Under the pieces are notes generated by a model. It worked only from the letters and a program-made list of their open reading frames with translations. It ran no database searches and was not told the DNA's origin. A DNA stretch of 64,000 nucleotides from contig CACEKE010000007.1 of the NCBI GenBank assembly GCA_902560075.1, positions 1 to 64,000 on the forward strand. The letters are read 5' to 3'. Shown piece by piece: positions 15,421 to 46,076 of the stretch. This stretch comes from an uncultured Pelagibacteraceae bacterium. Its GTDB lineage: Bacteria; Pseudomonadota; Alphaproteobacteria; Pelagibacterales; Pelagibacteraceae. A program made the translations under genes and the position numbers. Position 1 is the stretch's first letter. Every line of letters starts with the position of its first letter.

Positions 15421-16554
15421 ATGGCTGAAATAAAGAAGCTAGAAAAAAATAATACTTATTTAAAAGTTCTTTGGTCAGATGGAGAAGAAAGTAAGTTTAA
15501 TTATTTATGGCTTAGAGATAATTGCCCGACTGCTCATGATAAAGATTCAAATCATAGAATGTTTAATATACTTAATGTAAGTAAAGAAATTAATCCTAAA
15601 AATTACAATATTAATAAAGAGGGTAAACTGGAGATTGAGTGGAGCGAGGGCAATCATACAAGCTATTTTGACTTAAATTGGTTAAGAGAAAATTGTTACA
15701 CAATTAAAAATAAAAAAAAATATATTTCACCTTATAAATTGTGGGATAGTTCACTCAAAGATGAATTTAAATCTATATGTGTTGAACATGATGAAATAAT
15801 GAAAAGTGACAATGGATTGATTAAATGGCTTGAATTGTTACATCACACTGGTATTGCAATTGTTAAAAACGCACCAATTGAAGAAAAATCTGGATTTGCA
15901 GTTCTAAACAGAATTAGTCATACCAGAGAAACTTTTTTTAAAACGCCATTTGAGGTCATAAATATTCCAAAGCCTAATAACTCAGCATACACAGCTCATG
16001 CTTTGAGAAATCACATGGATTTACCCTGGTTTGAAAACCCACCTGGATATCAATTTTTACATTGTTTAATAAATTCTGCAGATGGAGGAGAATCTTCAGC
16101 GGTCGATGGGTTTGCTGTCGCAGAGTATTTAAAACATAATAATAGTGAGATCTTTAATACTTTAACCAATGTTTATTTAAAATTTAGGGATAAAGATTAT
16201 ACACAAGAAAATCATAGAGGTTTTCATGCGCCAGCTATAGGATTAACTAAAGATAACGATTATCATGATATAAGATTTAGCGTTGCTACAATGGATGCCT
16301 TAGACTGCCACCCAGATATTATGGACAAAGTTTACAAAGCTCATCATGAATTTGGAAATTTATTACATAGCGATAAGTTTCAAATTAATTTTAGAATGGA
16401 ACCAGGTGATATATTTTCCTTTAATAATAGAAGAGTCTTGCATGGTAGAACTGCATTTGACCCAAATTCAGGTCACAGACATTTACAAGGATATTATATG
16501 GATAGAGATGAGATTATTGGAAGATTAAATTATTTAAAAAAATCAAAATCATAA
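15421..16554 (+). CDS. Gamma-butyrobetaine dioxygenase-like 2OG oxygenase (DUF971-like N-domain + TauD domain)
   Basis: 'LKVLWSDGEESKFNYLWLRDNCPTA' N-domain plus 'AYTAHALRNHMDLPWFENPPGYQFLHC' and 'GDIFSFNNRRVLHGR'. Confidence 0.8.
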   Translation: MAEIKKLEKNNTYLKVLWSDGEESKFNYLWLRDNCPTAHDKDSNHRMFNILNVSKEINPKNYNINKEGKLEIEWSEGNHTSYFDLNWLRENCYTIKNKKKYISPYKLWDSSLKDEFKSICVEHDEIMKSDNGLIKWLELLHHTGIAIVKNAPIEEKSGFAVLNRISHTRETFFKTPFEVINIPKPNNSAYTAHALRNHMDLPWFENPPGYQFLHCLINSADGGESSAVDGFAVAEYLKHNNSEIFNTLTNVYLKFRDKDYTQENHRGFHAPAIGLTKDNDYHDIRFSVATMDALDCHPDIMDKVYKAHHEFGNLLHSDKFQINFRMEPGDIFSFNNRRVLHGRTAFDPNSGHRHLQGYYMDRDEIIGRLNYLKKSKS

Positions 16555-41099: not shown

Positions 41100-41989
41100 T
41101 GGATTGGGATAAATTAAAAATTTTTCATGCAGTCGCTGAGGCCGGAAGCTTTACTAGCGCAACGGTAATCTTAAATCTTAGCCAATCTGCGATTAGCCGT
41201 CAAATTCAATCTTTAGAGGAAGATTTAAAAGTAAAGCTTTTTGAAAGACATGCAAGAGGATTAACCCTTACAGAAAATGGTGAATATGTCTACAAAACTG
41301 CACACGAGGTGATTAGTAAACTCAAAGAAGTTGAAACGACATTAAGCGATAAAAAAGATAAACCAAGTGGTAAAATAGTAGTGACTACAGTCATGAGCTT
41401 TGGAACGACGTGGTTAACACCAAGAATACAAGAATTTATGGATTTAAATCCAGAAATTGAGGTTGAGTTAGTCTTTGACAATAAAGAGTTAGATTTAAGT
41501 ACTAGACAGGCTGATATTGGGATTTTTATGAGAAGACCAAAACAACTAAACTATATACAAAAAAAACTTATTGATCTTAACTATCATATCTATGGATCTC
41601 CAAAATATCTTGAAAAACACGGATATCCAAAAACTATAAATGATTTAAATAAGCATAAATTTATATCTTTTGGAAAAGGAGCACCTTCTCCAGTATATAA
41701 CCCTGATTGGGCTTTAAAACTTGGAATGAAAGATAATAAAAAAAGAAAAACATGCATGAGAGTTAATAGCGTTTATGGATTATTATTAGCGGTACAAAGC
41801 GGAGTAGGGCTAGCAGCTCTCCCAGATTACATTACTGTAAAACAACCTAACATTGTAAAGGTGCTACCAAACGTTGAGGGACCTATTACCGAAGCACATT
41901 TTGTGTACCCTGCATCTTTAAAAAATGTTGCAAGGATCACATCCTTTAGAAATTTCTTATTCAGTAAAATTCAAGAGTGGGAATTTTAG
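41099..41989 (+). CDS. LysR family transcriptional regulator
   Basis: MDWDKLKIFHAVAEAGSFTSATVILNLSQSAISRQIQSLE. Confidence 0.95.
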   Translation: MDWDKLKIFHAVAEAGSFTSATVILNLSQSAISRQIQSLEEDLKVKLFERHARGLTLTENGEYVYKTAHEVISKLKEVETTLSDKKDKPSGKIVVTTVMSFGTTWLTPRIQEFMDLNPEIEVELVFDNKELDLSTRQADIGIFMRRPKQLNYIQKKLIDLNYHIYGSPKYLEKHGYPKTINDLNKHKFISFGKGAPSPVYNPDWALKLGMKDNKKRKTCMRVNSVYGLLLAVQSGVGLAALPDYITVKQPNIVKVLPNVEGPITEAHFVYPASLKNVARITSFRNFLFSKIQEWEF

Positions 41990-42031
41990 TCAAAAAAACC
42001 ATTTAATAGTGATCTTCTTGCTGCTACAATA

Positions 42032-42046
42032 TGATAATAATTATCA
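42032..42046. promoter_or_regulatory. Fur-box-like operator
   Basis: TGATAATAATTATCA, perfect 7-1-7 inverted repeat, upstream of the Fe(III) ABC operon. Confidence 0.75.
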
Positions 42047-42119
42047 TTTGCATTGAGAATAATAATCAATTACAAGGGCCTCAACTAAAGATTCATTTAA
42101 TAAAAAAAGGAGAGAATAA

Positions 42120-43148
42120 ATGAGATTATTAAGTTTAATATCAATTATATTTTCATTATTGCTAGGTCCAGCACTTGCTGATGGTCACGGTGTTGTCAAT
42201 GTTTATAGTGCAAGGCACTATGATAGTGATGTTCAACTGTATGAAAAGTTTACCGCAAAAACTGGAATAAAAGTAAATGTTGTTTCTGGGAAATCAGGAG
42301 CATTGGAAAAAAGGATAATCGAGGAAGGTGGAGGAACTGCAGATCTTTATATTACCGCTGATGCAGGAAGATGTGGAGCTTTCAAAGCCAAAGGAATGTT
42401 ACAAGCTGGATTATCTTCTGATGTTATTAAATCAGCAGTTCCAAAAAACTTTAGAACATCAAGTTGGGTAGGAATAGCTAAAAGAGCTAGAATAGTTTAT
42501 TTTGCACCTGAGAGAGTAACTGGAGCTGAATTAGCAGGTTTAACTTATGAAAGTTTAGCTGATCCAAAATGGAAAGGTAGATTAGTAATCAGAAAATCAA
42601 ATAACATCTATAACCAATCATTAGTTGCTTCATTAATTAAAAATAATGGAAAAAAAGCAACGACAGCATGGGCAGAAGGTGTTGTATCAAATATGGCAAG
42701 AACTCCAAAAGGTAATGACAGAGCACAAATTATGGCAGTTGCTGCAGGTGAGGCAGATATTGCAGTAGCAAATACATACTATTTAGCTTTAATGTTATCT
42801 GGCAAAAAAGGAGCAGAGCAACAAGAAGCAGCCAAAAAAGTTAAACCGTTTTTTCCTAATCAAGATGGGAGAGGAACACACATGAACATCAGTTGTGCAG
42901 GTTTAGTTAAAGGTGCTCCAAATAAATCAGAAGCAATTGCATTAGTGGAATTCTTACTTAGCAAAGAAGCTCAAGAGCATATTGTAAATAACACTTTTGA
43001 GTACCCAATGATTGCAGGTGTTTCACCACATGAATTAGTTGTGAATATGGGTCTTGATTTTAAACAAGATCTAACAACTAAAGTTGTTAATTATGGAAAA
43101 AATCAAGCAGCAGCTGTTGCAGCAATGACTGGAGCTGGTTGGAAATAA
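42120..43148 (+). CDS. fbpA: Fe(III) ABC transporter substrate-binding protein
   Basis: Signal peptide; GVVNVYSARHYDSDVQLYEKFTAKTGIKVNVVSGKSGAL. Confidence 0.9.
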   Translation: MRLLSLISIIFSLLLGPALADGHGVVNVYSARHYDSDVQLYEKFTAKTGIKVNVVSGKSGALEKRIIEEGGGTADLYITADAGRCGAFKAKGMLQAGLSSDVIKSAVPKNFRTSSWVGIAKRARIVYFAPERVTGAELAGLTYESLADPKWKGRLVIRKSNNIYNQSLVASLIKNNGKKATTAWAEGVVSNMARTPKGNDRAQIMAVAAGEADIAVANTYYLALMLSGKKGAEQQEAAKKVKPFFPNQDGRGTHMNISCAGLVKGAPNKSEAIALVEFLLSKEAQEHIVNNTFEYPMIAGVSPHELVVNMGLDFKQDLTTKVVNYGKNQAAAVAAMTGAGWK

Positions 43149-43149
43149 T

Positions 43150-43323
43150 ATGACAACTAATAATAAAAAATTTATTCAAGAAGTTGATTTAAATAAATCT
43201 TCAAAGGCATGTCCTACATGTGCTTCTGAGTGTGAAAAAATCAATAATAGAATAAATGGGAGAGAATTATCTGATTTAGAGACTAAAGAAGTTCCGCAAA
43301 TTTTTAAAGTCTTTAATATATAA
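43150..43323 (+). CDS. 57-aa protein with CPTCxxxC motif (not in ORF track)
   Basis: ATG 1 nt after the fbpA stop: MTTNNKKFIQEVDLNKSSKACPTCASECEKINNRINGRELSDLETKEVPQIFKVFNI*. Confidence 0.6.
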   Translation: MTTNNKKFIQEVDLNKSSKACPTCASECEKINNRINGRELSDLETKEVPQIFKVFNI

Positions 43324-43328
43324 TTCAT

Positions 43329-43376
43329 CTTTTTGGTGTCCATGACAGGGTCTCCTTTGTTGTGGACACATCAAAG
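43329..43376 (+). other. Inter-cistronic RNA hairpin in the iron-uptake operon
   Basis: GTGTCCA (43336-43342) / TGGACAC (43363-43369), extendable beyond a 2-nt bulge; no strong U-run follows. Confidence 0.55.
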
Positions 43377-43399
43377 TTTTCATGGTTTAAAAATAAATA

Positions 43400-45022
43400 A
43401 TGAAAACCTTTAATATTTGGTACATCAGCAGTTTTTTAATTTCACTTTTTGTAATTATTCCAGTCGTAACAGTTTTTTTAAGTTACTTTGAAAATACCAG
43501 TGATTACTCTGAACTTTTAAAAAATACGTTTTTATTTGAATACATATCCAACTCATTAATTTTGCTTTTAGGCGTATTGATAATGACTTTAATAATAGGT
43601 GTTACAACAGCCTACCTAGTATCATTTTATAGTTTCCCTTTTTCAAATTTTTTTAAATGGGCATTGATATTAGGCTTTGCTGTACCACCATATATCTATG
43701 CTTATTCTCTAACTGCTTTTTTCGAAAATTATGGAACAGCTTACTCTATATTAAAATCTTTATTTGGTGACGGTAATTATAACAAACATATACCTAAATT
43801 TGACGGAATATTAGGTGCAATTTTATCAATTTCATTTTCGATTTACGCATATGTTTATATTTTAACTAGAGCTTCTTTTTATTATCAATCGAACAATCTG
43901 ATAGAACTTGGAAAAAATTTAGGTTTTTCCAAATTAAAATCATTGTTTAAAATTATAATTCCATCTGCAAGACCTGCAATAGTTGCCGGACTGTCATTAG
44001 TGGCCATGGAAACTTTGTCAGACTTTGGTGCTGTTGACTTTTTTAGTATAAACACTCTGACCACAGCAATTTATAATTCTTGGTTATCATTTGATGATTT
44101 GGCATTTTCAAATCAGTTATCATTTTATTTGTTAATTTTTATATTTGGATTATTTAGTATTGAAAAATTCTCAAGACGTAGTGCAAAGTACCACTCTCCA
44201 TTACAGGGTGGTTTTAAAACAAGAAAAAAAATTGAATTATATGGATTAAATTCTTTTTTTGCATTTTTGTTATGTTTTATTATTTTCTTTTTAAGTTTTA
44301 TATTTCCTATTTCTCAAATGTTATATTGGACTATTATTTATCCTAAAAATTTTTTTGATTTAAACATTTACGATCTAATATTAAATACACTTTTGCTCGT
44401 TTCTTTATCTTCAATCATTTTAATTATTTTTTCATTTATTTCTAACTATGGAAACAGGGTGAGCAAAAGTAAAATCTTAAATTTTTTAACAACCATATCT
44501 ATATCGGGATATGCTTTACCTGGCATCATATTGGCAGTTGCATACATTACATTTGTTGCTTGGTTCGATAATACAATAATAAATTTCTTTGAAATCCAAT
44601 CTATAAAAAAAATTTTTATTGGATCTATTTTAGGTTTAGTATTAGCTTACTTTGTTAGGTTTTATTCTTTATCCTGCAATGGTATTAAATCTAGTTATGA
44701 AAAAATTAATAAAACATTGGATGAAACTGCATATCTAGCAGGTTACTCAAAATTAAAAACTTTTTTAAATATACATATTCCATATTTAAAAAGTTCAATT
44801 TTTTTTGTGATTATTTTAATTTCTTTAGAAATAATAAGAGAATTACCTATCACTTTAATTTTAAGACCATTTAATTTTGAAACATTTGCTACAACAGCAT
44901 ATATATACGCGTCCCAGGATCTACTTGAAGCAGCAGCTGTTCCTTCTTTGTTTTTGGTATTAATCGCTTCTCTATTTATTTTTTTAATTTCAAGATATAT
45001 TCTTAAAGAGGAAAATGAATAA
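43400..45022 (+). CDS. fbpB: Fe(III) ABC transporter permease
   Basis: Two permease domains, 'IIIPSARPAIVAGLSLVAMETLSDFGAVDFF'. Confidence 0.9.
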   Translation: MKTFNIWYISSFLISLFVIIPVVTVFLSYFENTSDYSELLKNTFLFEYISNSLILLLGVLIMTLIIGVTTAYLVSFYSFPFSNFFKWALILGFAVPPYIYAYSLTAFFENYGTAYSILKSLFGDGNYNKHIPKFDGILGAILSISFSIYAYVYILTRASFYYQSNNLIELGKNLGFSKLKSLFKIIIPSARPAIVAGLSLVAMETLSDFGAVDFFSINTLTTAIYNSWLSFDDLAFSNQLSFYLLIFIFGLFSIEKFSRRSAKYHSPLQGGFKTRKKIELYGLNSFFAFLLCFIIFFLSFIFPISQMLYWTIIYPKNFFDLNIYDLILNTLLLVSLSSIILIIFSFISNYGNRVSKSKILNFLTTISISGYALPGIILAVAYITFVAWFDNTIINFFEIQSIKKIFIGSILGLVLAYFVRFYSLSCNGIKSSYEKINKTLDETAYLAGYSKLKTFLNIHIPYLKSSIFFVIILISLEIIRELPITLILRPFNFETFATTAYIYASQDLLEAAAVPSLFLVLIASLFIFLISRYILKEENE

Positions 45023-46076
45023 AAATTTTTTTGAAATTAAAAATGTAGATTTTCAAGTAGGAGGTAAAACAAAAGTTAAAAATCTTTCTTTACATATTGA
45101 AAAAAAAGGAGAAATAATTTGTTTATTAGGCCCTTCTGGCATTGGAAAAACCACAATATTGAGATCTATTGCTGGATTAGAGAAAATAAGCAATGGGTCA
45201 ATCTCTTTAAAATCTAAAGTACTCTCCTCTAAAAATGATTATGTAGAGCCTGAAAATCGAAATATAGCTCTTTCTTTTCAAGAAAACGCTTTGTTTCCTC
45301 ATTATACAATAAAAAAGAACATATATTTTGGCGCAGATAGAAATAAAGGAAATGGAGTAAGGAAAATTGATCCCAGAAAAATTATTAAAATTTTAAATAT
45401 TGAAAAAATATTAAATAAATATCCACATCAGATAAGTGCTGGAGAAGCTCAAAGAGTCTCACTTACGAGGGCACTCATATCTAACCCTGATTTACTTTTG
45501 TTGGATGAGCCTTTGTCTAATATAGATGAAAATTTCAAAGAAGAAATTCAGGTTAAATTAAAGCAAATTTTAAAAGACCATAAAATTACAACTATTATAG
45601 TTACGCATGACTCTTACGAGGCCTTTTATTTAGGCGATAAATGTGGAATTATATTAGAAAAAAAACTTAAACAATTCGATGAACCTTATAATGTTTATCA
45701 TTATCCAAGCTCTATAAATGTTGTTAATTTTTTAAATAGAGGAGTGTTAGTCCCCGCAAAAGTGACCGGTCAATATACTCTCCAAAACGATGATCTTGGC
45801 TTAATAAAGGGAAATTTTGTTAACGAACATAAAGTAGGTACAAAAGTAAAGCTTCTTTTACAACCTGAAGACTTAGAGCACGATGATAAAAGTAATTTAC
45901 AATTAGATGTGGTAGATAAAAAGTTTAAAGGTACAAACTTTATTTATACTTTAAAGACAAAAAGTAATAAAAATATCTCGGTTTTTGTCCATTCTCACCA
46001 CGTCCATCAGCACCAAATAAATGACAAGTTTGGAATTAAAAATCCTATACATATAAAACATTTAGTTTGTTTTTAA
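45015..46076 (+). CDS. fbpC: Fe(III) ABC transporter ATPase
   Basis: LLGPSGIGKTTILRSIAGLE, ISAGEAQRVSLTRALISNPDLLLLDEPLSNID. Confidence 0.9.
   Translation: MNKNFFEIKNVDFQVGGKTKVKNLSLHIEKKGEIICLLGPSGIGKTTILRSIAGLEKISNGSISLKSKVLSSKNDYVEPENRNIALSFQENALFPHYTIKKNIYFGADRNKGNGVRKIDPRKIIKILNIEKILNKYPHQISAGEAQRVSLTRALISNPDLLLLDEPLSNIDENFKEEIQVKLKQILKDHKITTIIVTHDSYEAFYLGDKCGIILEKKLKQFDEPYNVYHYPSSINVVNFLNRGVLVPAKVTGQYTLQNDDLGLIKGNFVNEHKVGTKVKLLLQPEDLEHDDKSNLQLDVVDKKFKGTNFIYTLKTKSNKNISVFVHSHHVHQHQINDKFGIKNPIHIKHLVCF

Follow-up and report, generated by a model that had tools for sequence, protein, structure and literature searches.

The SAR11 bacteria are among the most abundant in the ocean, and iron limits much of the ocean. 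What, then, is the short open reading frame (ORF) that lies in one of their Fe(III) import operons, between the genes for the iron-binding protein and the permease? We analysed it in the window, a stretch of 64,000 nucleotides from an uncultured Pelagibacteraceae bacterium, where the operon comprises the following features.

42027..42073, no strand assigned: Fur-box-like palindromes upstream of fbpA, GATAATAATTATCATTTGC at 42033 (15/19 to the consensus) and a second at 42055 (14/19)
42120..43148, + strand: fbpA/futA/sfuC-like Fe(III)-binding periplasmic protein, 342 aa (Pfam SBP families; PDB 2pt1)
43150..43323, + strand: small dithiol (CPTC) protein gene (translation, homologues, dN/dS, frame analysis)
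43329..43376, + strand: strong RNA hairpin in the gap that separates the small gene from the permease gene; core stem 43336-43369 (mfe -22.3, z -4.3)
43400..45022, + strand: fused two-unit permease, 540 aa, sfuB-like (Pfam BPD_transp_1, two stretches)
45015..46076, + strand: ABC ATPase, 353 aa, sfuA-like (Pfam ABC_tran, 8.2e-29)

A small gene in the operon of an Fe(III) importer

Translation of 43150-43323 on the + strand yields a protein of 57 aa that ends at a TAA stop. The TAA stop of fbpA at 43148 is followed by one T and then by the ATG of the small gene at 43150, in exact agreement with the sequence-only reading, which had described an intact 57-aa ORF separated from fbpA by 1 nt and missing from the ORF track. 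The ORF appears in the window's list once the minimum is lowered to 40 aa, and its absence is probably due to its size, which is under the 60-aa listing minimum.

With adjacent genes for a substrate-binding protein (SBP) bearing a Tyr pair, a permease, and an ATPase, the host operon has the make-up of a FutA/FbpABC (SfuABC) type Fe(III) importer. At E 6.5e-88, the upstream SBP has its best PDB match in 2pt1 ('Iron transport protein'), and the ANTYY tyrosine motifs of the two proteins align; this match and the domains agree with the earlier placement of the small gene between the SBP and the permease of an Fe(III) transport operon. Upstream of fbpA, a GATAATCATT-type core is kept in relatives, mostly 25-95 nt 5' of the gene, and the best Fur-box match there averages 15.5/19, compared with 11.8 in shuffles; Fur control of the operon is thus probable from its upstream sequence. 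The window holds a further Fur-box-like sequence, GATAACGATTATCATGATA, at 16252-16270 (15/19). In Ca. P. ubique HTCC1062, the mRNAs of sfuC, sfuB, and sfuA increase 16-, 10-, and 5-fold under iron limitation, and sfuC is a proposed iron-stress marker of SAR11 (PMC2864753). By analogy, the small gene would rise with the sfu genes when iron is limiting.

Selection and reading frame

The frame translated here is the only one open in all 98 unique small-gene sequences (98/98); the best antisense frame is open in 43/98 and the other frames in none. Median dN/dS for the small gene is 0.37 (Nei-Gojobori, 619 unsaturated pairs with pS 0.15-0.55), a rough value since synonymous sites saturate fast, and the window copy compared with its nearest relatives (L031, L032, and L002) gives about 0.1 to 0.3. 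The family is clearly under purifying selection, and the 57-codon ORF is a real gene. The sequence-only reading had suggested dN/dS and conservation in SAR11 genomes as checks, and both came out on the side of a gene: the former as given above, the latter with profile matches in 250/397 SAR11-order genomes. The frameshifts in relatives that it had named as evidence to the contrary do not occur in the family as a whole.

A few genomes do carry frameshifted or broken copies (G035, G288, G104, and G159), which may reflect decay or sequencing error and would suit a chance ORF or a decaying remnant with no function. That reading is scarcely credible: purifying selection, the single open frame, and the invariant residues together rule out a chance ORF, and refute a remnant, for the family. 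An antisense ORF of 55 aa (43176-43343, - strand) overlaps the small gene and is probably a chance frame, because no antisense frame stays open in more than 43 of the 98 relatives.

Distribution, position, and loss

At E 0.1, a search with the single sequence matched 229/397 Pelagibacteraceae genomes, the weakest matches possibly being due to chance, and the profile (A1) search behind the 250/397 count, at E 0.01, found its homologues essentially all in Pelagibacteraceae. All well-matched loci that we examined have the homologue in the slot flanked by fbpA and the permease gene, and its start is at most 25 nt past the stop codon of fbpA in 113 of 114. Among 289 Alphaproteobacteria sampled across the class, 134 of which have the permease, the profile matched two genomes only, both Pelagibacteraceae. 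Likewise, in the 28 loci examined from outside the SAR11 order, wherever fbpA is directly upstream of the permease gene the gap lacks the small gene. The second SAR11 family gave weak matches (L096, in a 233-aa frame, and L097, with a stop inside), which were rejected because they lie outside an fbpA context; also rejected was a 13-residue match in Actinomycetes (L036) whose neighbours include no fbpA or permease relative. We found no viral relatives of the small protein.

Twenty genomes of genus g1 have no match. Ten of these also lack a permease match at 1e-60 and ten retain the importer; eight of the latter have no trace of the small gene, and the other two, G180 and G314, seem to have decayed remnants of it. 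On a quickly built permease tree, with broken and divergent copies scored as absent, presence or absence changes at least nine times, which is most simply explained by an ancestral small gene that was lost repeatedly. Since several lineages have kept the importer but not the small gene, the latter is dispensable for transport.

The model strain appears to be one of the losers. In genome G026 the permease gene lies at 1179258-1180865 (- strand) and fbpA begins near 1181980, and in HTCC1062 the intergenic region 1181972-1182071 adjoins sfuC (PMC2704228); from these matching coordinates we infer that G026 is HTCC1062. Its fbpA-permease gap is 78 nt and lacks the small gene. A conserved extra component of most lineages would thus have been missed by the iron experiments, which used this strain.

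An invariant cysteine pair with a single proline

The sequence-only reading had seen a Cys triad and suggested a metal or Fe-S site and, from the position of the gene, an iron sensor, chaperone, or regulatory peptide. Both cysteines of the CxxC motif, C21 and C24, are invariant in 98/98 unique sequences (L054 and L077 are from the same genome, and any sequence they share is counted once), so conservation holds for the pair. It does not hold for the third position, C28, which is Cys in 68, Ala in 28, and Val in 2. The third Cys is present in most g1 members and replaced in genera g3 and g4, and a three-Cys site is not supported because this replacement occurs while the CxxC pair is never lost. 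Exactly one Pro lies inside the CxxC in 97/98 sequences, 79 with CxPC and 18 with CPxC, and its position switches at least five times on the permease tree, a count that recombination could inflate. Outside the 98-sequence set, G075 and G027 carry a divergent form with CKTC, without Pro. The residue after the second Cys is never Gly in the 98 sequences, and N15, E27, K30, R38, E47, I51, and F55 are also near-invariant.

AlphaFold2 modelling on 61 sequences gave helices at 22-35 and 45-55 and no strand (mean pLDDT 75.5, pTM 0.44), with the Cys pair opening the first helix, where pLDDT is about 85. The small protein is thus predicted to be a two-helix hairpin, and its hydrophilic N-terminus with no obvious signal peptide predicts a cytosolic location. 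In this model the single-Pro CxPC/CPxC stands at a helix start, an arrangement that would be no less suited to a redox dithiol than to a metal site.

The sequence-only reading did not recognise the family, and the libraries gave the same answer: Pfam and NCBIfam searches of the protein and its family returned nothing convincing, the PDB sequence search no solved structure, and Foldseek of the model against the PDB no significant match. Eleven of 61 members weakly match the thioredoxin-like TIGR00412 (best 0.0041), which may reflect only the CxxC-helix motif. A match to an ISL3 transposase (E 0.022) was dismissed as chance, at 13.9 bits against a cut-off of 180. A literature search for such a small protein found no relevant paper.

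The main rival to a dithiol role is a metal-binding sensor or brake, in which the CxxC motifs of two subunits would together hold one Fe(II), Zn, or Fe-S cluster and the protein so loaded would bind the permease or ATPase and slow import, much as FeoC accompanies FeoB. The invariant pair, the constant operon position, and the addition of a third Cys in most g1 members would suit this, and we regard it as possible, at well below even odds. The third Cys is not conserved, however, and no FeoC profile is listed among the Pfam and NCBIfam matches of 61 members at E 0.1, nor do the members match Fe-S family profiles significantly. The Gly that follows the second Cys in zinc knuckles is missing, metal ligands need no Pro rule, and several lineages have lost the small gene yet keep the permease.

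The net charge of the family, with a median of +6, raises another alternative, a small basic regulator that acts on RNA in an iron-sparing response, like the small basic proteins that Fur regulates in Bacillus. Probable Fur control would agree with it, as would the post-transcriptional control proposed for iron-limited P. ubique (PMC2864753). We consider such a regulator unlikely: the window protein has a net charge of only +1, the strongest constraint falls on the Cys pair, and no family of this kind is among the Pfam matches.

Neighbouring redox genes, FbpA cysteines, and the gap hairpin

In some loci a further gene separates the small gene from the permease gene. In six loci (L054, L059, L061, L077, L146, and L162), which represent five genomes since L054 and L077 share one, it encodes a peroxiredoxin (Pfam Redoxin, 2.5e-25 in L061), and one more locus has a remnant; this is an extra paralogue, with another copy elsewhere in the genomes tested. 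In six g4 loci (L050, L150, L153, L154, L157, and L160) it encodes a flavodoxin (Pfam, 6.1e-26 in L050). These insertions fit iron or oxidative stress and hint at a redox role of the small protein; they may also be iron-stress genes that merely share the operon's control.

The FbpA of the window (42120-43148) has Cys85 and Cys259, each position being Cys in about half of SAR11 FbpA proteins, and from their sequence a disulfide between the two is possible. We rejected the idea that the small protein serves these cysteines, as they do not track the presence of the small gene. More broadly, the small protein could be a dedicated folding or export helper for FbpA, encoded just upstream of it; the near-overlap of the two genes and the position of the small gene on the fbpA side of the hairpin would favour this. 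Such a helper is very unlikely, since about half of FbpA proteins lack Cys85 and Cys259, in the presence of the small gene and in its absence alike, and relatives retain FbpA without it.

In nearly all relatives, too, the gap that follows fbpA (or the small gene) and precedes the permease gene contains a strong hairpin (median z -3.8 over 77 unique gaps). Its stem sequence varies freely, and an Rfam search of 41800-43600 gave no match. It is present also in some loci without the small gene (L084-L086 and L088), and it may separate high expression of fbpA from low expression of the permease. Where the loop contains ACCC, a complementary GGGTA lies at the ribosome site or start codon of the permease gene in 13 of 17 loci (L038, L044, L048, L049, L068, L069, L084, L086, and L137-L141, which are related sequences and not independent), compared with 1 of 60 for other loops. 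Pairing of the loop with the permease start is possible from this complementarity.

A proposed role

The reading we favour, with a probability of roughly 45%, is that the small protein is a cytosolic dithiol accessory to the Fe(III) importer, induced by iron starvation and acting in redox or iron handling. Fur would probably release the operon in iron starvation and so induce the small gene along with the iron-binding protein, and its translation is probably coupled to that of fbpA, since its start codon sits at the fbpA end. One dithiol, CxPC or CPxC, at the helix start of the predicted two-helix hairpin would do the work. Most likely, its thiols would act on iron that has just been imported or on redox partners, either by reducing or accepting Fe or by cycling between dithiol and disulfide. 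More specifically, a thioredoxin-like dithiol on a non-thioredoxin two-helix scaffold might let this lineage-specific mini-protein reduce or accept, in the cytosol, the iron that an Fbp/Fut-type importer delivers, a version that we hold doubtful. We know of no dedicated component in Fbp/Fut-type importers for the cytosolic reduction or acceptance of delivered iron; if the small protein does handle imported iron, it would fill a gap in the cytosolic fate of ABC-imported Fe(III).

Comparison with known systems

Zinc ribbons and rubredoxins have two CxxC knuckles, usually CPxCG, whereas the small protein has one CxxC, never followed by Gly. The active sites of thioredoxin and glutaredoxin are CGPC and CPYC, and the small protein shares with them a CxxC that contains a single Pro and, by prediction, opens a helix; its 57 aa and two predicted helices differ from the thioredoxin fold, in which helices flank a beta sheet. 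The operon of the Feo Fe(II) transporter encodes FeoC, a small cytosolic protein with cysteines. The small protein, cytosolic by prediction, resembles it in size, in cysteines, and in genomic setting, yet the two have no sequence match, the small protein has two invariant Cys and no predicted winged helix, and the transporter types differ. The Fur-regulated small basic proteins of Bacillus (reference 24 of PMC2864753) are small and likely Fur-regulated, as here, but the small protein has no Pfam match to them, bears an invariant dithiol, and sits in a transporter operon. The host operon itself, with its Fe(III)-binding protein, fused permease, and ATPase, is shared with FutA/FbpABC (SfuABC) systems, whose operons examined outside Pelagibacteraceae have an fbpA-permease gap without the small gene. 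The small protein family, undescribed in the libraries searched, is thus a modification of a known kind of system.
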